Shown here: positions 3,636-43,440 of the stretch, piece after piece
Numbering within the stretch: the first letter of the stretch is position 1
Layout of the letters: each line of letters starts with the position of its first letter
Assembly (NCBI GenBank): GCA_002742845.1
Contig: DLUH01000005.1
Location: 248,001 to 312,000, forward strand
From: Sulfurovum sp. UBA12169
Lineage (GTDB): Bacteria; Campylobacterota; Campylobacteria; Campylobacterales; Sulfurovaceae
Length of the DNA stretch: 64,000 nt
Direction of reading: 5' to 3'
Translations under genes and position numbers: made by a program
Notes under the pieces: model-generated
What the model was told of the DNA's origin: nothing
Seen by the model: only the letters and a program-made list of their open reading frames with translations
Databases searched by the model: none

Positions 3636-3648
3636 AAAAGAATGAAAA

Positions 3649-4377
3649 ATGAAAATCCTCTTAGCTCCGAGCGAGACCAAATCAAGCGGCGGGACGATCC
3701 CGTTTAGTCTATCTGATCTATGGAGCAATGAGCTGCTTGAAACGAGATCCAAACTAACACAAATTTACCTCGAAGAACTGAAAGACGAACTCAAATCCAA
3801 ACAAATGTTTGGTCTCAAAAAACCACGCGAGATAGAATATTATAGAAATATCAGGCTACATTCTCTTGCTACCAAAGCAGTAAAGAGATATACGGGCGTA
3901 GCATTTGATTATCTGGATTACTCTAGCCTTGATGATAAACAGCAAAATTATATAGACAAAAACGTCATGATATTTTCAAATCTTTTTGGTCCTATTATGG
4001 CCGGTGATCTTATACCAGAGTACAGACTGTCCCAAGGGGCAAAAGTGGGCGAAATTGAGGCAGATAAATATTATAAGGTGCATGGTGCTGAACTCTTGGA
4101 TAAATATTTGGCTGACGAGGAGATACTTGATATCCGTGCAGGATATTATGATAGATTTTATGTGCCATCCAAGCCATACACGACTTTGAAATTCATTAAA
4201 GACGGCAAAGCAGTAAGCCACTGGGCAAAAGCCTACAGGGGTATTGTTTTACGAGAAATTACCAAAGCCGGCGTCAACTCACTTCAAGATTTTATAAAAC
4301 TTCCCATAGAAAATTTAACCGTTCAAGAAATACAAGTCAAAAAAAACAAGACAGAAATCGTCTATGGCCTGGGATAA
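3649..4377 (+). CDS. yaaA: Peroxide stress protein YaaA (DUF328/UPF0246)
   Basis: A 242-residue member of the YaaA family, which in E. coli lowers free iron and limits Fenton damage under hydrogen peroxide. The conserved opening MKILLAPSETKS, the middle YTGVAFDYLDY and the end segment AKAYRGIVLREI fit family signatures. It follows the ATPase remnant and begins a plus-strand run with a small membrane peptide and a SUI1 gene, three bases and then eight bases apart. Cytoplasmic; no signal peptide. The family call is secure, the exact biochemistry is not known from sequence. Confidence 0.9.
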   Translation: MKILLAPSETKSSGGTIPFSLSDLWSNELLETRSKLTQIYLEELKDELKSKQMFGLKKPREIEYYRNIRLHSLATKAVKRYTGVAFDYLDYSSLDDKQQNYIDKNVMIFSNLFGPIMAGDLIPEYRLSQGAKVGEIEADKYYKVHGAELLDKYLADEEILDIRAGYYDRFYVPSKPYTTLKFIKDGKAVSHWAKAYRGIVLREITKAGVNSLQDFIKLPIENLTVQEIQVKKNKTEIVYGLG

Positions 4378-6695: not shown

Positions 6696-7886
6696 AAGCA
6701 AAATATCAACCTGCTCCCCTGTTGCTTTGGAAGTATCTTCTTCGGAAGTAAAAAGAAGTGCTGTTGGTCCAAGCATATTGGTAAGGATAGCAGAAGTGCC
6801 TACTTTTTTCTTATCAAAGTCAACCGTATACACGCCATTGGCAAGTGCGACATTGCATGCAGTAAACTCGGCCTTTTTGGTCCTTTTATGAAACGGCTGC
6901 AGCAAAGTCGCCTTCACTGTGCGAAGCAAACTTTTACCTTGCTGCAGCTTTTCAATCAGCGGCACCGCATACAACAGCGCCGTTACCGTTGATGAATAGG
7001 CAAATCCCGGAAGCCCAACGATAAATTTATCCTCTTTGCGCGCTACCATGATGTGTTGCCCCGGTTTGATACGCACCCCCTTGAAAACAACCTCGCAGCC
7101 AAGCTCTCTGATCACATCTTTCACAAAATCAAAATCCCCTACACTCACTCCTCCTGTTGTTACCACGATATCACTTTTCTCAAGAGCTTGTGCCAAGGCA
7201 ACGGTAATACTCTGCTTATCATCTTTGATGCATCCCAGCTGCAGGGGAATCCCCCCGTATTTTTTCACCAACGCTTCAAGAATATAATTGTTTGAACTTC
7301 TGATTTGGGCATCGTTGGTCTGACTCTCTCCCAGCTCAAGCAGCTCGCTGCCTGTAGAAAGGATAGCAACCGTTGGTTTTTCATACACCAACGGTGAAAC
7401 AATATTTAAACCGGCCATCACTCCGATTTGTGCAAAATCTATCTTTGTACCTTTTGGAATAAGCAGTTCTCCCTTGCGATAGTTTTCTCCTATTTCTCTT
7501 ACAGAATATCCTAAAGGCACCTCTTGGCGGATAATAATCTCATCTTCTTCTACCGTAACATTCTCTATGGGGATAAGGGTATCCGCCCCTTGAGGCATCA
7601 ATGAGCCCGTAAATGTTTTAATGCAGTGCCCGCAGCGCACTTCATCTTTGAGGGGACTCCCGGCAGGATTGATGCTGTCTATTTTTAGTTTCCCGATCAC
7701 CATATCCTCATATCTTATGGCATATCCATCCATCGCGGAAGTGGGAAACTCCGGCGAATTATGATCAGCAACGATATCCTGTGCAAGCACATAGCCTAAA
7801 GCATCAACCAAATAAATCTTTTTTGTTTTATACTGTTTGATCTCAAGATTTTTGATCATCTCAATAGATTTATCAAAATGCAACAT
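6687..7886 (-). CDS. moeA: Molybdopterin molybdenumtransferase MoeA
   Basis: MoeA inserts molybdate into adenylylated molybdopterin, the last step of molybdenum cofactor synthesis. The 399-residue protein has the family motifs PTSAMDGYA (48-56), TGSLMPQGADTLIPIENV, TTGGVSVGD in the MPT-binding domain, and GLPGFAYSS. It runs toward moaE and moaD from the same side: moaD, moaE and moeA are read in that order on the minus strand with a 145-base gap before moeA that contains heptad repeats. The product would serve SoxC at the end of the window and other molybdoenzymes. Confidence 0.96.
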   Translation of the reverse strand: MLHFDKSIEMIKNLEIKQYKTKKIYLVDALGYVLAQDIVADHNSPEFPTSAMDGYAIRYEDMVIGKLKIDSINPAGSPLKDEVRCGHCIKTFTGSLMPQGADTLIPIENVTVEEDEIIIRQEVPLGYSVREIGENYRKGELLIPKGTKIDFAQIGVMAGLNIVSPLVYEKPTVAILSTGSELLELGESQTNDAQIRSSNNYILEALVKKYGGIPLQLGCIKDDKQSITVALAQALEKSDIVVTTGGVSVGDFDFVKDVIRELGCEVVFKGVRIKPGQHIMVARKEDKFIVGLPGFAYSSTVTALLYAVPLIEKLQQGKSLLRTVKATLLQPFHKRTKKAEFTACNVALANGVYTVDFDKKKVGTSAILTNMLGPTALLFTSEEDTSKATGEQVDILLLD

Positions 7887-14699: not shown

Positions 14700-16805
14700 C
14701 TATTTCTTAAGCTTATAGATTTTGCTATACGGCGATGAGACAACAAGCTCAAATAAATTAGGGTCATATTTACCCAGTATGAACATCTGCACATAGGTTG
14801 ATTCAAAGGTTTGAGAATCCATGATCACAAACTGTCCATAGCTTTGCATATAGATAATCACGTACATCCCCTCGACATGATAGGATTGGGACTGGAGCTT
14901 GATATCGCCTTCATTTGTATTTTGCGTGATGATAAAATGCCTGACTTCTCTTTTTTCTGCTCCCATAAAAAGTTCGCCTTTTTTGGCATCAAACTCGATA
15001 CCGTTTGCAAAAATTACTCTCTCGTTATCATTTTTAACCGCGCGCGTAGGATAAAAAACAATTTCTCTCTCTTGTTTGCCTGTGGTCAGATCCAGATTGC
15101 CAAACAGCATCACAGTAGGAAAAATGCTCATCATCCTGTAAGGAAGATAAAGATAAATATCTCTTGTTTTGGGAGGAAGTCTGTATTGGGGGTCTTCAAG
15201 CTCAGCCAAAAGCAGATTGGGTTCAAGCTGATCTTTTTGTCCATTTTTAAACAACACATCAGCCACCTCGGAGTAGTTCGAATCCACATACGTCTCTACG
15301 GCCAAACGGCTTAAATTGGCGGCCAGCTCAGGCGAGGAGGTCTGAAGGATTTTAGAGATGATAAAATTGTCATTATGATGTTTGCCGCCGTCTATGAGCG
15401 TATTGGTATCGGAGTAATACCAGATCGGATAGCCATAGTCCCACCAGCCCAGCGTATAGTCTTTTGTGTCTGCTATCGCATCAAGCTTCGTAAGATCTTC
15501 TACTTCGGCCTTATTGAGCACTGTGGGCACTTTGTAGTCAACTATATGGGCGATATTTGGATACAAAGCCCCAAGCGACAATACACAAAAAAGTACATAT
15601 GCCCCTTTTTTATATTTTATAAATTCCAACGAAATGATATAAAATAAATATATCACCGAAAATGCCGCCATCGGAACAGCATAGATAGTAAATCGCAATC
15701 CTCCCCAATATGCAAAAACCCCGATTCCCAAAAGCGGCAGTGCGATTATAAACTGCTTATGCCTGATTACCAAAATTAGATAGCCTATAATGCTGATTAA
15801 AAATAGTATGGGGCCGCCTATAATTCTATCGGCAACAGTTTGCCATGATATTGATCCTGCTTCTCTTACGGTTTGAATTACTTCATAAAAATGCAATCCG
15901 CTTTCCCTGACTCCCCTGTCTGTATAGATCATAATTTTCTCAAAAATCAAAGAAAACACATTGCCAAAAAAGAAAAATATACCTAAAGCCAATAGCGCCA
16001 AATAAAAAAGTTTTCGTGTGTCTAAAGAATTTTTTATTTTTTCAAAAAATACAAATATTAAAACAAGAACAACTGTTTTGCTCCAAATAGGCACGGCCCA
16101 AAGAGATACAGAAGCCATTATTATAAAAAGATAGGTATGCTGATCTTTTCTTTGATAGAGTACCTGATAAGCGGTCCACAAAAGAAAAACGGCATAGATA
16201 AGACTCAACCCCTGAGGATAAAAGAATGGATAGATTAAAATGGCAAGCATTAACCATAAAATATTTTTATTCTCTTTTGAATACAGCGTAAGTAAAAATA
16301 AATACAAGATCGTAAATTGCAAAAGAACAGCAAACATGTCACTATCATAATAGCCGGTCATAGTTCTATTGTAATAGCTCCAAGCGATTGAACCTAAAAG
16401 TGCAGCAAAAAAACCGACCCACGGCAACCTGACAAGCTGGCCGGTTAAAACAATAGGAATTACTACTAAACTGGATATTATCGCAGGGAGAAAAAGTATG
16501 GTCGTCTCCAGCGACATTGGTGTAAATTTTGTCAAAAAATAGGTAGCATAGATGATAGCCGGATAACTCTCAAGGGCAACAGGAATCCTTGGATTGTCGG
16601 CATGAGCTCCATTGATAAGATGTTCTGCGGCCGATGCAAAAAAATATCCGTCATTGGTGTTGATCATCAGTTGCCCGTTCCAATAAAAATTTGGATTGTC
16701 TTGAAACTGAAAAATCCAGATCATCCGCAGAGCAAAACTAAAAACATATGCGATCAAAATCAATATGCTTATCTCTTTCCAATTTAGTTCATTTTTTTTA
16801 AACAT
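14700..16805 (-). CDS. pglB: Oligosaccharyltransferase PglB (STT3 family)
   Basis: Transfers a lipid-linked glycan to Asn in D/E-X-N-X-S/T sequons in the periplasm. The 701-residue protein matches C. jejuni PglB in length (713). About 11-13 membrane helices fill residues 12-420. Catalytic features visible: Asp52 in NDGYFF, Asp154/Asp156 in YYDSD, a TIxE-type motif TVRE (312-315) and WWDYG (454-458) opening the soluble domain. It has its own sequon at Asn510 (DSNYS). A 131-base gap separates it from pglD and holds a possible -10 (TATGAT, 16867-16872), so pglB may have its own promoter. Confidence 0.96.
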   Translation of the reverse strand: MFKKNELNWKEISILILIAYVFSFALRMIWIFQFQDNPNFYWNGQLMINTNDGYFFASAAEHLINGAHADNPRIPVALESYPAIIYATYFLTKFTPMSLETTILFLPAIISSLVVIPIVLTGQLVRLPWVGFFAALLGSIAWSYYNRTMTGYYDSDMFAVLLQFTILYLFLLTLYSKENKNILWLMLAILIYPFFYPQGLSLIYAVFLLWTAYQVLYQRKDQHTYLFIIMASVSLWAVPIWSKTVVLVLIFVFFEKIKNSLDTRKLFYLALLALGIFFFFGNVFSLIFEKIMIYTDRGVRESGLHFYEVIQTVREAGSISWQTVADRIIGGPILFLISIIGYLILVIRHKQFIIALPLLGIGVFAYWGGLRFTIYAVPMAAFSVIYLFYIISLEFIKYKKGAYVLFCVLSLGALYPNIAHIVDYKVPTVLNKAEVEDLTKLDAIADTKDYTLGWWDYGYPIWYYSDTNTLIDGGKHHNDNFIISKILQTSSPELAANLSRLAVETYVDSNYSEVADVLFKNGQKDQLEPNLLLAELEDPQYRLPPKTRDIYLYLPYRMMSIFPTVMLFGNLDLTTGKQEREIVFYPTRAVKNDNERVIFANGIEFDAKKGELFMGAEKREVRHFIITQNTNEGDIKLQSQSYHVEGMYVIIYMQSYGQFVIMDSQTFESTYVQMFILGKYDPNLFELVVSSPYSKIYKLKK

Positions 16806-16936
16806 TATTATTCCTGACTTTTATTGGGGATATTTATGACTTTCTTTACTGCCATTACGACATAAAATCATACCCGTTTTTTCCTAATTCCAAATACTAT
16901 TACTGACAAATCTTAAAAGGATATTGTATGTCATAT

Positions 16937-17542
16937 TTAACTTTTGACGGCTTCATTTTTTTGTTCTTTGCATGGAACTCCGTAAGCTTTTTTAAAGTCA
17001 CCAATATTTTTTATCACGCTCGACCCTGCGCCTATGATGGTATTTTTTCCTATTGTTATGCCCTGTATCACAGCAGAACCTATCCCAATATGTGTAAAAT
17101 CCCCCACTTTTACATCCCCTGCAAGTGCAGCATTCGGCGAAATATGGACAAAATCTCCTATCCTGCATTCATGCTCTATGATTGAGCCGGTATTGAGTAT
17201 AGCTCCTGCCCCAATCGAAGCTTTTGCATTGATAGTAACATTTGGCATCACGACGCTTCCAATACCGATAACAGCGCTTAAGGACACAACTGCACTCGGA
17301 TGAATCAAGGTAGTTATCGTAAAGCCATGAGCTTTTGCTTTTTCAAAAAGTTTTGCCCTAATACTATTATTGCCTACTCCGATCACTATGGGAATATGAT
17401 TTTCTTTTGAAATATCCTCAAAACTTGGATACATAGCATTAGCGTCATCTATAAACAGAATATTATCATATCCGCATATACCGGCTACCTCAGCTACCAC
17501 CAATCCGTGACCGCTTGCTCCGTAAATATAAATTGGATTCAT
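16937..17542 (-). CDS. pglD: UDP-4-amino-sugar N-acetyltransferase PglD
   Basis: Completes UDP-diNAc-bacillosamine by acetylating the 4-amino group. The 201-residue protein has the PglD opening [15 protein letters not shown] (UDP-sugar domain) followed by a left-handed beta helix of hexapeptide repeats from about residue 85 to 190, with His in IIEHEC as the likely base. It overlaps the end of pglC by four bases. The neighbours pglC, pglE and pglF support the role. Confidence 0.93.
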
Positions 17543-18135
17543 TTTTTATTGCCTTTAAACTTTTCCATAGTAACACTTCTTGATGAACTAATATCGTTTC
17601 TTTTTATCACTTTTAAAAATGTAAGCCATAGTATCTTCATATCAAGAAGAAAGCTTTGATGTTTCACGTACCATATATCATGTTCAAACTTTTGCTCCCA
17701 GCTTATGGCATTGCGTCCATTTACTTGCGCCCAGCCCGTAATGCCTGGTAAGACATCGTGTCTGATTCTTTGCTTCTCATCATACAAAGGCAGGTATTCC
17801 GCAAGCAAGGGCCTAGGACCGACAAAACTCATCTCCCCTTTGAGCACATTAAAAAGTTGCGGCAGCTCATCAATGCTAGTACTTCGTATAAATTTACCTA
17901 CACCATGCAATCTTTTTTCATCTGGCAAAAGCTCTCCATCTTCATCTGTTTCGTTGCTCATAGTACGAAATTTGTATATACCGAATATCTCTTCTTTATA
18001 CCCTGGGCGAGGCTGAGCAAACAGTATAGGTCTGCCCATAGTCACTAAAATCAATAAACTTATCATGACAAAAACAGGTGCAAACAAAATTATCAATATG
18101 ATAGAAAATAGGATATCAAATGATCTTTTAAGCAT
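17539..18135 (-). CDS. pglC: Undecaprenyl phosphate bacillosamine phosphotransferase PglC
   Basis: A 198-residue monotopic phosphoglycosyl transferase very like C. jejuni Pgl[19 protein letters not shown] membrane dip, [27 protein letters not shown] with the Asp-Glu dyad, FVGPRPLL and [14 protein letters not shown]. It should load diNAc-bacillosamine phosphate onto the lipid carrier, starting the N-glycan. It overlaps pglD by four bases and the preceding glycosyltransferase by eight. Confidence 0.92.
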
Positions 18136-19333
18136 TACTTACCTCATCTTGAAGAACCTTCTCCAGCTTATCGACAAGTACTTTGGTGCTATAAAATTTC
18201 TCACAATACTCTCTGTTTCGTCTCCCCATCTGCGTTCTTTGCTCGTGTGTCATGGAAATTATCTGCTTAATAGTGGCTACCAATTCATCCACTTCATCGG
18301 GAGCTATAGTAAATCCTCCGTTTGCTTCTTTGATAGGATTATTCGCAGCATTTGTAGAAAATATAACTACTCTGCCTGCTGCCATATAATCAAAAAGTTT
18401 ATTTGAACTGATCCCGTATCTAAATACCGGGCTGTCTTTGAGATTGAAATACAAAATATCGCTGACTGCAAGGATATCTGGTATTTGGCTTTTGGCTACC
18501 GGGTCTTCAATGGTTATATTCTCCAGTCCTTTGGCTTGCACCATTTCTTTTAGTTTTTGTTTTTCTACTCCATCGCCAATGATACGAAAAATGATATTTT
18601 TATCTTCTTTTAGTTTATCTGCAGCCTCCACCAAAACCCCTAGATTGTTTGCTACTCCCATAGCGCCGGTATAACTGACTACAAATGGACTTGATTCGCT
18701 TTTTTCCTTATAAGAAATATTTCTCAAATCCACCCCATTGCTGATCCATTCAAATTTTTGTGGTGGGGCATAGTCAGATATATACTCATATGCGTATGGC
18801 AGATTTGAAATGATTTTATCCGCTTTTCTATACAAAAATCTCTCTAAAATTCCAAGAATTATAATAAACGGATGCCGCTTGGAGATGCCCATATCTATAA
18901 GTGTTTGAGGCCAAAGATCCCTTACTTCCATTACAAACGGTATCTTATATTTCCGTGAGAGCTTATAAGCAGCATAAACAGCAAACAGATGCACTGAAGA
19001 GCCTATGATAATATCAGGCTTAGACAGATCAAGAGTCGGAATGATTTTCAAAGCTTTTCTGGTATAGCTTAACATGTTTTTTACCCTAGCCATCCCATTG
19101 CCTCTATAAGGAGGGGTTTTCAGCCATACCCACTCTATGCCGTCAACATATTCACAAATATGTTCTTTTTCTTCATATTCTTTCATTTCTATGTATTTGG
19201 AATAGTGAAAACTAGAAGAGATGATGGCTACCTTGTGACCTCTTTTTATGAGCTCTCTTGCAAAATCATAATGTCTTGTTCCACCGCTCATTTGAGGTGT
19301 AAGTGCATGGTGATTGAGTATCCAAATAGTCAC
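18128..19333 (-). CDS. GT4-family glycosyltransferase (WbuB-like)
   Basis: A 401-residue cytoplasmic GT-B enzyme. It begins [20 protein letters not shown], the form seen in WbuB and other aminosugar transferases of O-antigen clusters, and has [15 protein letters not shown] and the donor-site region [17 protein letters not shown]. It starts one base before the epimerase gene ends and ends inside pglC, so is likely the second enzyme on the lipid-linked sugar. Donor and linkage cannot be read from sequence. Confidence 0.85.
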
Positions 19334-20434
19334 TTAATACTCCAATAATGTTTTGATGATATTTTCGCTAGCTTTGCCGCTGCCATATAAATTTGAGGCC
19401 GAAGGCTGAAGGATAAAGGCTGAAGAGCTATGGTAAGCATCAATAATTTTTTCTTTATCTGCACCGACCAATACATTTACTCCCATCTCAACTAATTCCA
19501 CCCACTCAGTTTCATCTCTTAGGGTCATACAAGGCTTAGAGAAAAAATATGCTTCTTTTTGAAGTCCTCCGCTATCTGTCATTACAAGCTCACAATTATC
19601 TATCAGCCATACCATTTCTAAATATCCGACCGGATCGATTATGGTCAGATTTGTGGTCTTTATTTTCAAATTCTGAATTATTTTTTTGGTTCTTGGATGC
19701 AGAGGCAAGACGATCTGTTTCTCTTTGGCTATTTCATTTAGTGCTTCAAAAATAGCTCTAAGCCTAGCTTCATCATCTGTATTTTCTGCCCTGTGAATGG
19801 TACAAAGGATAAATGATGAAGGAGGAAAGAGGAAGGAAGAAGGCTTTTGTGAAAGGTTTTTATAAAAAATTGCTCCGTCTTGCATCACATCACCCACATT
19901 AGCGATCAATTGCTGTTTGTTTGTAGCCATTACAAACGGGAAGCCTTCATTTTTAAGATTTTGCACCGCTGCATTCGTAGGACAAAAAAGTATATCGCTT
20001 ACCCTGTCTGTAAGTATGCGGTTAACCTCTTCTGGCATTTTCATATTGAAAGATCTCAAGCCTGCTTCGACATGGGCAAGCTTAATGTGAAGTTTGCTAG
20101 CTACGATAGCCCCGGCTAATGTAGAGTTGGTATCCCCATACACAAGCATCCAATCTGGTTTTTCTTTTAATACCACCTCTTCGATATGCTCTATCATCTG
20201 TCCTGTCATAGCGCCGTGTGACTTGCCGCCTATGCCAAGGAAATAATCTGGTTTTGGTATTTGCATCTGTTCAAAAAATATATCGCTCATATTGGCATCA
20301 TAATGTTGTCCGGTATGAACTATAACCTCTTCGATACTTCTGCCTTCTGCCTTCTGCCTTCTCGCTTCCCTGCTAACATTTCCGGCTTTTATAAATTGCG
20401 GTCTTGCACCCAGGATGGTTACTATTTTTATCAT
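19334..20434 (-). CDS. wecB: UDP-N-acetylglucosamine 2-epimerase family (WecB/WbpI-like)
   Basis: A 366-residue non-hydrolysing UDP-HexNAc 2-epimerase: TILGARPQFIK at the start, HTGQHYDANMSDIFF, HVEAGLRSFNMKMPEE, TIHRAENTD and DSGGLQKEAY. The MPEExNR form and the presence of wbpB, wbpE and wbpD in the locus favour WbpI, which makes UDP-ManNAc(3NAc)A; WecB or FnlC remain possible. Odd: three stretches of peptide come from 7-base repeats read in frame (SREARRQKAEGRS, QKPSSFLFPPSSF and SSSAFILQPSAS), replacing or lengthening surface regions while leaving the motifs intact. Overlaps the upstream GT gene by four bases. Confidence 0.9.
   Translation of the reverse strand: MIKIVTILGARPQFIKAGNVSREARRQKAEGRSIEEVIVHTGQHYDANMSDIFFEQMQIPKPDYFLGIGGKSHGAMTGQMIEHIEEVVLKEKPDWMLVYGDTNSTLAGAIVASKLHIKLAHVEAGLRSFNMKMPEEVNRILTDRVSDILFCPTNAAVQNLKNEGFPFVMATNKQQLIANVGDVMQDGAIFYKNLSQKPSSFLFPPSSFILCTIHRAENTDDEARLRAIFEALNEIAKEKQIVLPLHPRTKKIIQNLKIKTTNLTIIDPVGYLEMVWLIDNCELVMTDSGGLQKEAYFFSKPCMTLRDETEWVELVEMGVNVLVGADKEKIIDAYHSSSAFILQPSASNLYGSGKASENIIKTLLEY
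19391..19434. repeat. Heptad repeat tract inside the epimerase gene, C-terminal
   Basis: On the minus strand CTCTTCA, GCCTTTA, TCCTTCA, GCCTTCG, GCCTCAA follow one another in 7-base steps, encoding SSAFILQPSAS. It is bordered by CCATAGCTCTT, the same 11-mer that borders the tract at 7908-7942. Confidence 0.65.
19807..19848. repeat. Heptad repeat tract inside the epimerase gene, middle
   Basis: Plus-strand heptads GGATAAA, TGATGAA, GGAGGAA, AGAGGAA, GGAAGAA, GGCTTTT. On the coding strand they give the proline/serine/phenylalanine-rich peptide KPSSFLFPPSSFIL just before the conserved TIHRAENTD. Confidence 0.65.
20327..20368. repeat. Heptad repeat tract inside the epimerase gene, N-terminal
   Basis: Plus-strand heptads CTCTTCG, ATACTTC, TGCCTTC, TGCCTTC, TCGCTTC, CCTGCTA, with two exact copies in tandem. 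On the coding strand they give the basic peptide REARRQKAEGRS about 20 residues from the start, before the conserved HTGQHYD. Confidence 0.65.
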
Positions 20435-21549
20435 TTTATTAGCTCTCCATAAACTCTAAATAGTTTCTCTTCTTCAATGCCCCAATTATACTTTTTTAAA
20501 ACAGCTTTTTTACCATTTTGTCCCATTTGTTCTGCTTCTTGCGGGTGTACAATAATATATTCTATAGCGCGAGCTATCTCTTGTGGTTCAAGAGGATTGA
20601 CACATATTCCGCAATCGTTTTCTTCCACTATTTCTTTCCAGAGTGAAAAATTTGAAGTTATGATAGGTAGTCCCGCAGACATGTACTCGAACATTTTTAT
20701 CGGCAAAGCATCTAAGTAATTTATAGTCGGATAAAGTGTTACAAGTCCAGCTTTCGAGCGGCTCATCACATCTGCTACGCCTTCACGATCTAAAAATCCA
20801 AATTCATTGACATTCTTCCATCCATCATAACTTTTTACTTCAGTTTCTACATCGTTTTCACTAAAGCTGCCAGCTAGATTTAATCTTACATTTTGCGTAA
20901 ATTCCATAGCTTTTACAACTTCTTTTATTCCTCTTGTTTTGGCAATCCCGCCCACATAGCACACCTCATCTTTTTTCTCATCCCAAGGAGTTTTATTGGC
21001 AAGTTCTCCAAGAATTGGGAAGTTATTTATATCTACACTTTTTTTATTTATCTTTAGAAATTTATCTCTGATATGTGGCGTTGCCGTGATGATATAGTCA
21101 AACTTTTTACAAGCGTATTTTTCATAAAGTTCAAAAGTTTTAGAAAGTATCACTTTTGCTACTTTGCCCAGATACGGTTTCCCAAGCAACTGCTTTGGCA
21201 AATCCTCATGAGCATCAAATATCACTTTAAAACCCAGTTTTTTTAACTTCAGTCCTATGGGAATAAGCTCCGGGTCATGCAAATGATAGATATCGCTATC
21301 AAGCTCTTTTGCTTTTTCAAAAACTTTTTTAACTGTTGTCGTCATGCGAGAGATACGACCACCTGTTTTTGGCCCAACATCTACTATATTTACACTATTT
21401 TTTATTTCATCACCTTTGCCATCCGCAACCACCAAACTCACCTTATAGTTTTCATTTTTAGCTAAAGATGAACACATTTTTAAAAATATTCTTGTATCGT
21501 ACCTTTGATGGGCTGATGTAATGTGGGTAATTTTAACCGATTTTGACAT
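20431..21549 (-). CDS. GT4-family glycosyltransferase
   Basis: A 372-residue GT-B glycosyltransferase. N-terminal ITSAHQRYDTRIFLKMCSSL is typical of a group of capsule/O-antigen transferases; YHLHDPELIPIGLKLK and FDAHEDLPKQ follow, and the donor-binding region MFEYMSAGLPIITSNF lies near residue 290. It overlaps the asnB-like gene by 17 bases and the epimerase by four. No signal or membrane helix. Specificity is unknown. Confidence 0.86.
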   Translation of the reverse strand: MSKSVKITHITSAHQRYDTRIFLKMCSSLAKNENYKVSLVVADGKGDEIKNSVNIVDVGPKTGGRISRMTTTVKKVFEKAKELDSDIYHLHDPELIPIGLKLKKLGFKVIFDAHEDLPKQLLGKPYLGKVAKVILSKTFELYEKYACKKFDYIITATPHIRDKFLKINKKSVDINNFPILGELANKTPWDEKKDEVCYVGGIAKTRGIKEVVKAMEFTQNVRLNLAGSFSENDVETEVKSYDGWKNVNEFGFLDREGVADVMSRSKAGLVTLYPTINYLDALPIKMFEYMSAGLPIITSNFSLWKEIVEENDCGICVNPLEPQEIARAIEYIIVHPQEAEQMGQNGKKAVLKKYNWGIEEEKLFRVYGELIK

Positions 21550-23341
21550 TATAAATTTGCTCCCATTTGGCTATATTAAAAAGTTTCCATTTCTGTTCGA
21601 TATCTAATTTGTCAAACTCTACTTTTTTTACAGCAATCATCTTAATTATATTTGATTCCTCTATAGCTGTTTTCATTTGATTTTCTATTGTTTTTAGCCA
21701 GCTTTTTGCAGGCGCCTCAAAGCCCATTTTATTTTTTCTCCAAACTACATTTTTTGGCAAGATATTTTCAACTGTTTTTCTTAAAATATATTTTGTCCAA
21801 CCATTTCTTATTTTATATTGATTATTAATTGATAAAGCTGTTTCAACTACTCTATAGTCAATAAATGGCAATCGTGTTTCAATTGAGTGTCTCATCGAAT
21901 TTCTATCTTCATATCTAAGTAAATGTGGCATCTGGGTATAAAATATCTCTTCATGCTGTAAAGCGAAAAGATTCAAATAGCTTTTTGCATTTTTTTCTAA
22001 AACATCAAATGATGTAAGTTCTAAATATTCTTTTTTAACAAAATTGTTTTTAGTCTTAAGTCTTTTTATTCTTATTTTAGAACTTGTGAAATAAACAAAA
22101 TATGCCAATAATTGTTTCAAGCTAAGTTTTGAATTTTTAGATGCATTGAAAAAGCCTTTAACAAAACCGGTAAATCCTAAACTCATCAAATATGCAGGAT
22201 AATATCTCTCGTAGCCTACTAAAGTTTCATCACCACCTTGACCATCAAGCAAAACTGTACATCCTATCTCTTTTGCTTTTTTCATCACAAAGTATTGCAT
22301 AAAAATTGAAGGGCCTCCAAAAGGCTCTTCTTGAGTATAAATTACATCGTCTATCCTGTTTGAGAAATCTTCTCCTGATGGCTCAATTATATTTAAATCC
22401 AAATCACTAGAGCTAGAAACTTCTTGCGCAAAAAAGCTTTCATCGCTTGTTTTTTCAGATGATTGAGCATGTATAGCAATAAACTTATCAGTGGCTTTAG
22501 ATCTGTAAATATCAGAGGCAATAGCAGCAATAGCAGAGCTATCCAGTCCTCCACTTAAACATGTGCCAACTTTTACATCACTGCGAAGTCTTAGTTTTAT
22601 TGAATCCATCAAATTAGAACGATATTCGTTTACCGATGAAGTTAGATCTAAATTTAATTCCCTTTGTTCAATGTCATAGTATCTTTTGATTTCAAAGCGA
22701 TTGTTTATTAAATCGTAAATTAAGTTATGTGATTGTTGGAGTTTAAATATATTTTCAAAAAAAGTTTCATTTGTATGGTTTTCATATCCTATGACCAAAT
22801 AATCCATTAAATTTTTTTTATTTACAAACCTCTCTTCATAAAATTCTAAAAGTTGCTTTATCTCAGATCCAAATACAAACTTACCATCAACTTCTGCGTA
22901 ATAGAAAGGTTTAACTCCAAATCTGTCCCGACTACAAAATATAATATTTTTTTCTTTATCATATATAGCAAACGCCCACATACCGTTAAATCTATTTACG
23001 CACCCTTGTCCCCACTTATCATAACTAGCAAGTATTACTTCGGTATCTGTATGGGAATGAAATATATATCCCTCTTTTAAAAGTTCGTCTTTTATTTCAA
23101 GGTAATTATAAACTTCTCCATTATAGGTAATGACATACTTATCAAGATAGTGCATAGGCTGATGCCCGTCACTGCTAAGATCTATTATAGAAAGTCTTCT
23201 GTGTCCAAATGCGAAGCTTTTCTCAATATAAAAGCCTTCATCGTCAGGACCCCTGTGTGCTATAAGATCGTTTATCTTCTTTATCTCGTTTTGTTTAATG
23301 GGTTGTTTATTTTTATTAATAATTCCGCTTATGCCACACAT
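21533..23341 (-). CDS. asnB: Asparagine-synthase-type amidotransferase (glycan locus)
   Basis: A 602-residue protein with an N-terminal class II glutaminase domain (Cys2 in MCGISG, RLSIIDLSSDGHQPM) and a C-terminal ATP-pyrophosphatase domain (LSGGLDSSAIAAIA, then DGQGGDE). Asparagine synthase and sugar amidotransferases share this layout. Because it lies between glycosyltransferases and near wbpB/D/E genes for a uronic acid, amidation of a uronic acid carboxyl is a reasonable inference; a general asnB copy also exists at 31272-33059. Shares one base with the upstream gene stop (TAATG). Confidence 0.88.
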   Translation of the reverse strand: MCGISGIINKNKQPIKQNEIKKINDLIAHRGPDDEGFYIEKSFAFGHRRLSIIDLSSDGHQPMHYLDKYVITYNGEVYNYLEIKDELLKEGYIFHSHTDTEVILASYDKWGQGCVNRFNGMWAFAIYDKEKNIIFCSRDRFGVKPFYYAEVDGKFVFGSEIKQLLEFYEERFVNKKNLMDYLVIGYENHTNETFFENIFKLQQSHNLIYDLINNRFEIKRYYDIEQRELNLDLTSSVNEYRSNLMDSIKLRLRSDVKVGTCLSGGLDSSAIAAIASDIYRSKATDKFIAIHAQSSEKTSDESFFAQEVSSSSDLDLNIIEPSGEDFSNRIDDVIYTQEEPFGGPSIFMQYFVMKKAKEIGCTVLLDGQGGDETLVGYERYYPAYLMSLGFTGFVKGFFNASKNSKLSLKQLLAYFVYFTSSKIRIKRLKTKNNFVKKEYLELTSFDVLEKNAKSYLNLFALQHEEIFYTQMPHLLRYEDRNSMRHSIETRLPFIDYRVVETALSINNQYKIRNGWTKYILRKTVENILPKNVVWRKNKMGFEAPAKSWLKTIENQMKTAIEESNIIKMIAVKKVEFDKLDIEQKWKLFNIAKWEQIYNVKIG

Positions 23342-24471
23342 TAAATCAATCCCTTATAAACTTCTAGTAAAACCTTTTCTTGTTGTTCCCAATTATAGAT
23401 AGTCTTTAATTTTTGAATATTGGTTTTTAATTCATCTTTGTCTAACTTTGCAGCCTCTTCTATAGCTACTTTTAACGCATCTGGATTGTTCTCTTTTGCA
23501 ACAATTCCTATTTTATTTGACTCAACCAATCGTTTCATCTCGTAAAGATTTGAAACTATCACCGGTATTTCCGCCATAAGATACTCGAACATTTTATTTG
23601 GAGAACAATAATAGTGATTCAAACAACTATTTTCATAAAATAAAATTCCAAAATCAGCACTGCTTGTATAATCAAGCAAAACATCAGGCGATACCGCCTT
23701 ATAAAAATAGATATTTTTATATTCTTTTGATTCTTCTATTATCAAATTCTCCAATTGTCCATATCCCATAAAAACGATTACAGCATTTTCATGATTCATA
23801 CTTTTAAAAGCTTCAAGAAGTATCTCTATACCTCTGCCTTTACTTAACCCACCTTGATATAAAAATATCGTTTGACTTTCTTGTATGCCTAAAGTCTCTC
23901 GAAATATGTCTTTCTTTTCAATTATTTTATATGGCGGAGTATTTAAAACTAATGCGGGTTTTTCTATATTGTACATTTTTGAATATTCATTTGCTATTGA
24001 ATCACTTACAGTTATTACTTTATCTGCATATTTGATTAAAAATTTCTCAAAAAAATATTTTATCTTTATCTTATATTTACTTTCGTTTGGAGTGTCATTT
24101 ATCTCATACTCATGAGCATCATAGACTATCCTTGCATCACGATTGAAAAACTTTTTTATTAGCACACCTATTGGTAATGTGTTTAAGTCGTTGCAATGAA
24201 AAATATCACTGTTTTTATAATGCTTTACCACCCTATAGATAAATTCAAAATATTTTAAAACCTGAACCAACTTATGCTTTGACCATCCACGACTTTTTAA
24301 TTTTACTCTATGCACGGGAATATTTTGAATTTCATCATACTCTTGCAGGGGCTCTTCATGAAGTGCGACCACCTGCACATCATAGCCGGCTTTTTTTAGT
24401 GAGATATTTTCTTTTAATACGCGACTATCGTTTTTGAAATTATTTAGTACAACCGATGTTATTTTTTTCAA
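23341..24471 (-). CDS. GT4-family glycosyltransferase
   Basis: About 376 residues of GT-B fold: VVLNNFKNDSRVLKENISL, a start typical of family 4 members that act on cell-surface glycans, DAHEYEINDTP, and a donor site near NKMFEYLMAEIPVIVSN. A TTG start at 24471 is preferred, with GAAGGG seven bases upstream; the frame also opens two codons earlier at another TTG. A 78-base gap precedes it. The gene is visibly more AT-rich than pglF-pglE, as are its neighbours from 21.5 to 27 kb. Confidence 0.84.
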   Translation of the reverse strand: MKKITSVVLNNFKNDSRVLKENISLKKAGYDVQVVALHEEPLQEYDEIQNIPVHRVKLKSRGWSKHKLVQVLKYFEFIYRVVKHYKNSDIFHCNDLNTLPIGVLIKKFFNRDARIVYDAHEYEINDTPNESKYKIKIKYFFEKFLIKYADKVITVSDSIANEYSKMYNIEKPALVLNTPPYKIIEKKDIFRETLGIQESQTIFLYQGGLSKGRGIEILLEAFKSMNHENAVIVFMGYGQLENLIIEESKEYKNIYFYKAVSPDVLLDYTSSADFGILFYENSCLNHYYCSPNKMFEYLMAEIPVIVSNLYEMKRLVESNKIGIVAKENNPDALKVAIEEAAKLDKDELKTNIQKLKTIYNWEQQEKVLLEVYKGLI

Positions 24472-24555
24472 ATACAATCCCTTCTTTTTTCATAAACTCG
24501 TAAATTAATTAGCATCGGTATATGAAATATCATTTTTTGATTTATCTTTCCTTGA

Positions 24556-42753: not shown

Positions 42754-43440
42754 TTACCTTTCTTCATCCATCTCTTGTATGGCGTCTTGATAATCTTTGT
42801 CAGCATTTTGTTTTGCTTCAAGCTGTTCTTTGGAAACATTGATATCTTGTATCTGTACTGCGGCGCTCTTCTCTTTTTTCACGCCCTCCTGTACTTTGCC
42901 GTCCATCTCCTGTACGGCCTCTTGATAATCCTTGTCGGTGTTTTGTTTAACACCAAGTTGCGCTTTGGAAAGATTGATATCTTGTAGCTGTGCTGCTACA
43001 GTTTTCTCTTTTTCCGCCTCGCCCTGCTCCTTTTTTAACCCTAAAAGCTCATCCTCTTCCTTCTTCAGATTTGAGATTTCTTGCTCTCTTGCTGCCTGTT
43101 CTTCTTTAAGCCGAAGAACTCTTTTTGCTTCTGTACGTAACTTCTCTGCGTCTTGGGTTTCTTTTTCTGAAGGACTTATTCGTTCAGCAGGGGCTTGTGT
43201 GTTTTGTGCCGTCCCGATAGCGGATCTGTTTTCTTCTGTACCGGGTTCAACAAAAATGTCATCCTCTTGCTTGCTCTCTTCTAAAGCTTCTTTTTTTTGC
43301 GCTAAAAGCTTTAGCTCATCAAGAAAAACAGACTGGGCATGATCAATCTTTTGAAGATTCTCTTTCAAATCAAAGGGGTTGTTCTGTGCATTTGCTACGG
43401 TTACTGCAAGCATTATAAGTACGGATAGATATCGTTTCAT
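42754..43440 (-). CDS. Exported coiled-coil repeat protein, CgpA-like
   Basis: A 228-residue protein with a signal peptide (MKRYLSVLIMLAVTVANA) and a charged, Lys/Glu/Gln-rich coiled coil. Two 35-residue units, residues 146-180 and 191-225, are near copies, each with QDIN(L/V)SK and DKDYQ(E/D)A(V/I)QEMD. It occupies the place of C. jejuni cgpA (Cj1670c), a known N-glycoprotein, after recA-eno and a small coiled-coil gene. Three PglB sequons are present: Asn71 (EENRS), Asn156 (DINLS) and Asn201 (DINVS), one in each repeat. Overlaps the preceding gene by four bases. Function unknown. Confidence 0.75.
   Translation of the reverse strand: MKRYLSVLIMLAVTVANAQNNPFDLKENLQKIDHAQSVFLDELKLLAQKKEALEESKQEDDIFVEPGTEENRSAIGTAQNTQAPAERISPSEKETQDAEKLRTEAKRVLRLKEEQAAREQEISNLKKEEDELLGLKKEQGEAEKEKTVAAQLQDINLSKAQLGVKQNTDKDYQEAVQEMDGKVQEGVKKEKSAAVQIQDINVSKEQLEAKQNADKDYQDAIQEMDEER
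42766..42870 (-). repeat. Second copy of the 105-bp coding repeat
   Basis: Encodes residues 191-225 of the CgpA-like protein. It matches the unit at 42901-43005 over its length at protein level, with scattered silent and conservative changes in the DNA, so the duplication is not recent. Confidence 0.7.
42901..43005 (-). repeat. First copy of the 105-bp coding repeat
   Basis: Encodes residues 146-180 of the CgpA-like protein, offset by 45 codons from the second copy. The 30-base linker (residues 181-190) is not repeated. Confidence 0.7.

Follow-up and report, generated by a model that had tools for sequence, protein, structure and literature searches.

Palindromic elements of Rickettsia are translated foreign DNA at tolerated positions of conserved proteins. 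For the S23/IVP proteins, which are four-helix bundles, we know of no function. Bacterial genomes have long been known to contain dispersed heptanucleotide repeats, on whose origin there is no agreement. As cited in PMC4692102 and PMC4679880, Mrazek (2007) and work on Calothrix describe such long simple repeats, or cyanobacterial STRR, as 7-bp tandem arrays of three to six copies, with many units per genome and a mostly intergenic location. The GGGACCG elements of Geobacter metallireducens, with four copies of the unit, have one fixed unit in one genome and were read as a regulatory element (PMC2700814). The intervening sequence (IVS) in the 23S rRNA of Coxiella carries an S23 ORF and a 28-bp terminal stem (PMC4990558).

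Three heptamer tracts in one epimerase gene

The window, i.e., the whole stretch of 64,000 nucleotides that was analysed, covers positions 248001-312000 of contig C5 of a 1.86-Mb genome (G000), the nearest relatives of which belong to Sulfurovum (Campylobacterota). Its epimerase gene matches Pfam PF02350 (5e-110) and NCBIfam TIGR00236 (313.7 bits over cut-off), and the closest solved structures are the UDP-GlcNAc3NAcA 2-epimerases 8sxv and 8sxy (PDB, E ~1e-113). Around it (window 14700-24477) lie genes for a NeuD/PglD-type acetyltransferase, a polyprenyl glycosylphosphotransferase, glycosyltransferases and an asparagine synthase-like protein, together with a PglB-family oligosaccharyltransferase displaying a full-length model match with a score far under the strict cut-off. 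This region is a candidate protein N-glycosylation or surface-glycan locus.

Table 1. Position and features of the epimerase gene, its tracts and the armed PF05635 genes of the same genome (L145 is G000 C5:600001-620000; all other positions refer to the window).
Feature	Position	Strand	Description
Non-hydrolysing UDP-GlcNAc 2-epimerase family gene, WbpI/WecB type	19334..20434	-	366 aa; host of all three tracts
Tract 1	20337..20368	-	coding GAAGGCA, ~4 copies; residues ~22-34 (REARRQKAEGRS); net +4 aa vs common form
Tract 2	19804..19843	-	coding CCTTCNT, ~5 decayed copies; residues ~197-210 (PSSFLFPPSSFIL); net +2 aa
Tract 3	19391..19425	-	coding CCTTCAG/CCTTTAT, ~4 copies; residues ~336-348 (SSAFILQPSAS); length as in tract-less homologues
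Armed PF05635 gene	L145 3036-3479		arms AAATTAG/AATTTCT
Armed PF05635 gene	L145 7019-7494 (gene 7075-7434)		arms AGTGAAT (left), ACTATTC (right)

All three tracts are in frame within the epimerase ORF and are translated (Table 1). Tandem Repeats Finder located period 7 at 19396-19425, 19818-19843 and 20337-20362/20368, and only one further, minimal row of this period in the window (3641-3655, 2.1 copies). By the lag-7 score, 19804-19843 and 20337-20368 were the sole strong segments of the window, while 19396-19425 emerged at a laxer setting. Both methods thus bear out the original prediction of three in-frame tracts in a WecB/WbpI-like gene, with little else of the kind nearby. The units had been given as variants of TGCCTTC or GGAAGAA, of which the period stands and the sequences needed refinement: the coding unit of tract 1, GAAGGCA, is TGCCTTC on the plus strand, and tracts 2 and 3 have the coding units CCTTCNT/CCTTCNG, so that tract 1 is inverted relative to both. 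The unit CTTCTGC has no match within two mismatches elsewhere in its own genome, so that no other locus surviving there can have been the source of tract 1. A 135-bp direct repeat (1.8 copies) within a coding stretch at 42767-43013 of the window shows no relation to the heptamer tracts.

Since the tracts are partial and imperfect, and the net change in loop length is +2 to +5 aa or about 0 and no multiple of 7 aa, heptamer copies are not required in threes; in this respect the initial suggestion, by which they come in threes or are compensated, needed refinement. Between the tracts only conserved epimerase sequence is found and no S23 ORF, and no four-helix-bundle gene lies in or adjoins the epimerase gene of the window.

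In a confident AlphaFold model (mean pLDDT 89.5), tract 1 is predicted to cover the C terminus of the first helix (11-29) together with the loop running up to strand 34-40, tract 2 the loop 193-207 leading into strand 208-212, which precedes the TIHRAEN motif, and tract 3 the loop joining the last two helices (327-335 and 355-365). All three are therefore placed by the model at surface loops, as had been proposed, with "surface" judged from secondary structure and from high variability in sequence and length. The catalytic and invariant positions are outside the tracts.

Period 7 is a property of the DNA. In 90 homologous genes (96.6 kb), segments of period 7, counted at a score of at least 11, were found 24 times, against 0-2 for the other periods from 4 to 17 except 14. 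When synonymous codons were shuffled within each of the 90 genes, keeping the protein, the count fell to a mean of 1.2 and a maximum of 4, which means that the DNA shapes the peptide; amino-acid selection is ruled out as the source of the periodicity. The peptides that had looked foreign between intact catalytic motifs are, indeed, products of DNA-driven tracts. The flanks of the homologues (493 kb) revealed three period-7 runs, all A/T-rich and unrelated, and a Markov-4 sequence with the length of the 464-kb genome sample gave one period-7 segment at a score of at least 11 and none at 13 or above.

The same loops with changing units among relatives

Heptamer tracts occur in the same loops of epimerase relatives, plus one or two more (at about residues 170 and 250), and some relatives carry two or three of them. 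Their units are AACTTCA in L037 and L038, AATTCAA/ATTCAAC in L042 and L044, CACCACT in L041, GAAGGCA/GAAGGTA in L039, and CCTTCAT and AAAAACT in L035. With this last and closest relative (82% nucleotide identity) the query has tracts 1 and 2 in common, the query's tract 2 being decayed, and tract 1 is of equal length in both despite 18% nucleotide divergence, while in loop 3 the heptamers of the two are unrelated. Ordinary protein conservation would have shown as the same peptides from unrelated DNA; instead, the relatives have other heptamers and other peptides at these places.

Loop 1 has a length of 18-29 aa with a tract against 14 aa typically, the loop at 195 mostly 19 aa against 17 aa, and the loop at 335 mostly 22 aa against 21 aa. 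As a tract of 26-40 bp thus goes along with a length change of 0-12 bp, earlier sequence was replaced, i.e., the loops were overwritten and not invaded. When the tract label is mapped on a phylogeny of 80 epimerases, 10 changes are required, no fewer than seven of them forced by well supported branches, showing that the tracts come and go. Units within one gene are more alike than units of different genes (2.0 vs. 2.6 mismatches, permutation p 0.007). The opposite reading of TTCANNN-type units always contains TGA, so that such units can be translated on one strand only, and GAAGGCA is open in both directions; due to this orientation rule, coding tracts are almost always of the TTCA-type strand and inverted ones are GAAGGNA.

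Heptamer arrays and four-helix-bundle genes

The proposed genome search for 7-bp tracts was productive: 857 kb of the own genome, sampled in stretches (46%), displayed 15 strong period-7 arrays, some of them coding, compared to two at most for any other period except 14. Of the coding arrays, one lies in a Mur ligase, directly ahead of its middle domain (L144:15792), and one in a sugar-nucleotide dehydratase, close to its C terminus (L153:9697); hypF of genome G024 (L348) has two coding tracts. Heptamers inside genes represent one aspect of a class of 7-bp tandem arrays spread over the genome, a context that the window alone could not reveal. The three-fold occurrence in one gene, originally considered unusual, is uncommon, but not unique, given the two tracts in HypF and the two or three in epimerase relatives. 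In a PriA-type helicase (L145 5159-7009), the peptide REVNSEKLIVNSGKV between the DNA-binding and helicase domains resembles a decayed heptamer translation, with a score under the threshold.

The heptamer-armed genes carry a PF05635/TIGR02436 ORF (23S IVP, S23-like), and two of the three PF05635 genes of the own genome are framed by inverted heptamer arrays, the third having an array on one side. Both armed genes of L145 have syntenic copies in genome G060, with units partly changed. Arrays within 250 bp flank 42 of 60 PF05635 genes of the genus on both sides and a further 11 on one side only. The arms are inverted and their units matched, with mismatches summing to 24; permuted partners gave 114, and none of 2000 permutations was as low. 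The unit varies from copy to copy. Beyond the genus, arrays stand on both sides at 17 of 28 loci of Campylobacterota and at 14 of 15 on plasmids from Spirochaetota, Bacteroidota, Cyanobacteriota, Bacillota, and Chloroflexota, most of them inverted. A search for a published link between heptamer arrays and four-helix-bundle/IVP genes, short on subscription papers and preprints, found none.

Armed units and their empty sites could be compared on Nostoc plasmids. Three of these have an intact cytosine methyltransferase gene; in three others a 466-bp unit, consisting of an arm, the four-helix-bundle gene and an inverted arm, replaces 328 bp of that gene. In Nostoc C052, an armed unit on one plasmid replaces 188 bp present in a sister plasmid, which is 99.8% identical downstream. 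No direct target duplication was seen at these two Nostoc empty sites. The cas2-cas1 operon also occurs with and without a four-helix-bundle gene between cas2 and cas1 (not aligned base by base). The armed elements examined sit between genes or within protein genes. Array-flanked four-helix-bundle genes beside or between cas2 and cas1 were seen on plasmids of Anabaena and Pseudanabaena (L292, L294), and others in DISARM/BREX or other methylase-helicase operons (L293, L295, L296).

Close strains (L287 vs. L305; Planktothrix L296 vs. L309) have arms that differ in length by entire units. The predicted transcript of the L287 unit has complementary ends with a 38-bp closing stem (z -7.9; own-genome copy, z -4.9). 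In the untouched methyltransferase gene (L306/L307 compared with L287 1425-1435), the arm's heptamer CAATTCG is present once, beside the left junction, a hint that the unit may be taken from a 7-mer of the target; the second empty site gives only AATT, which leaves this as a lead. At L145 12193-12319, two inverted heptamer arrays (AGTGAAG/ATTTTTC) lie about 65 bp apart with no gene between them, and another such pair with a different unit was found in G060 (C13:84627-84748), apparently at the same place; the pair looks like a non-autonomous version of the four-helix-bundle element.

In 61 genomes of the genus, the count of TTCANNN arrays, arms included, tracks that of PF05635 genes (Spearman rho 0.79, p 6e-14, with no correction for phylogeny). 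Arrays sampled directly numbered 0, 0, and 2.2 per 100 kb in three genomes lacking PF05635 and 6.5, 1.5, and 2.0 in three that have it, and G073 has arrays and no PF05635 gene. As for the epimerase, PF05635 above the cut-off is present in 8 of 11 genomes with epimerase tracts compared to 7 of 38 tract-less ones (Fisher p 0.001, uncorrected for kinship and with a few genomes under two locus ids). Phylogenetically independent pairs point in the same direction (3.7 to 0.1), but are too few for significance (p 0.125), and the tract-bearing draft genomes L039, L041, and L044 have no PF05635 over the cut-off. The tie of the epimerase tracts to the element is only correlational because no homologue shows the element inside the epimerase gene. 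In G043 (L002/L256, C1:1272451-1275597), the distance between an armed PF05635 gene and a copy of this epimerase gene that has no tracts is about 1.8 kb.

Possible origins of the tracts and comparison with known systems

We propose, with confidence evenly balanced for and against, that the tracts are the coding part of an array class found throughout the genome, produced by 7-nt copying and going with S23/IVP elements as the probable driver. Such arrays would arise and turn over via reiterated copying of a 7-nt unit, by slippage or template switching, which would overwrite the pre-existing sequence. Within genes, survival would be limited to outcomes that preserve the frame, are free of stops and can be accommodated by a tolerant surface loop, and for this reason different units would strike the same three or four epimerase loops repeatedly. 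Either the element or its protein probably gives rise to the arrays or drives them, and the four-helix-bundle protein or element may act in trans, on the epimerase included. More broadly, and as a tentative reading about which we remain rather doubtful, four-helix-bundle genes (S23/IVP, TIGR02436) with inverted, unit-matched arms may form a distinct and widespread class of mobile elements that generate 7-nt arrays of their own at every site they occupy and replace host DNA in the process, the dispersed heptamers of bacteria, including those coding in enzymes, being their products.

Plain polymerase slippage on 7-nt units, with the four-helix-bundle elements merely sitting in such arrays, or accumulating them, because palindromic arms are prone to slippage, is in our opinion unlikely, though it accounts for several observations. 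Among the long simple repeats of prokaryotes, heptanucleotides are reportedly the most abundant kind in most genomes, and the footprint of the polymerase has been put forward as a hypothesis (Mrazek 2007, as cited in PMC4679880 and PMC4692102). The arrays of G073, a genome lacking the PF05635 gene, the coding tracts of L039 and L044 and the whole-unit differences between the close strains named above fit slippage as well. On the other hand, almost no arrays were seen in three of five sampled genomes with no or few PF05635 genes, array abundance tracks gene number, and slippage leaves unexplained both the inverted arms of the same unit around one gene family in six phyla and the near-constant loop length.

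The tracts could also be scars of armed elements once inserted in the loops and lost through their palindromic arms, leaving one arm in frame. The armed element inside the Nostoc methyltransferase gene, where host DNA was replaced, and the gene-less inverted pairs of the own genome agree with such a history. We regard it as improbable, as none of the 90 epimerase homologues has the four-helix-bundle element in place, every epimerase tract is of single orientation, and clean in-frame losses at the same loops would have to be repeated in many lineages.

A phase-variation (contingency) locus, in which gain or loss of 7-bp units shifts the frame and switches a surface glycan on or off, is suggested by a unit length not divisible by three and by the position of the epimerase among glycan genes, including one of the PglB type; in H. 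influenzae, heptanucleotide repeats mediate the variation of hmw1A (PMC8262952). This reading is unsupported here and very unlikely to be correct: the tracts are short (about four copies) and imperfect, the length of tract 1 is retained between the query and L035, and no frame-shifted (off) homologue was found among the fetched loci, where neither L073, with an unrelated 5' sequence ahead of residue 49, nor the truncated copy L028 is broken at a tract. In-frame insertion of a mobile protein-coding repeat similar to the Rickettsia palindromic elements, as first suggested by the foreign peptides within loops of a conserved enzyme, is hardly credible and was rejected on sequence and length, since the tracts span only 26-40 bp, are neither palindromic nor of common sequence between hosts, lie in one orientation in overwritten loops, and changed the net length by little and not by the length of the tract.

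With 7-nt copying linked to S23/IVP elements as the preferred explanation, the near-constant physical link of heptamer arrays and S23/IVP genes in six phyla, with empty sites, turns two puzzles into one testable question. The epimerase adds the point that the array process reaches conserved enzymes and rewrites their loops in frame, an unrecognised source of loop variation as well as of odd database peptides such as RRQKAEGR and PSSFILHPSSFIL.

Compared to the known systems, the arrays resemble heptanucleotide repeats and STRR, as far as these are described in the citing papers, in their tandem 7-bp units of three to six copies, in the many different units of one genome, in their mostly intergenic location and in the excess of period 7 over other periods in the own genome, but they are also found in conserved enzymes, with up to three per gene and at the same loops in many lineages, where they overwrite the loop, and they are tied to four-helix-bundle genes. 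Unlike the elements of Geobacter metallireducens, their units vary by site and species. Contingency loci likewise have a non-triplet tandem repeat inside a glycan gene, whereas neither length variation nor an off-state was seen among the fetched homologues of the epimerase, with its short and imperfect tracts. The palindromic elements of Rickettsia are longer, palindromic and mutually homologous in-frame insertions. The epimerase tracts are none of these; their units differ between hosts, even between the query and L035 in loop 3, so the copies are not mutually homologous, and net gains of +4, +2, and about 0 aa for tracts of 26-40 bp fall short of a full-length addition. The 23S rRNA IVS shares with the armed elements the PF05635/S23 gene and complementary ends forming a long terminal stem (38 bp in L287 vs. 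28 bp in Coxiella). The armed elements differ from it in their intergenic or protein-gene sites and in arms made of tandem heptamers with a unit differing between copies, and the epimerase tracts in having no S23 ORF between them.
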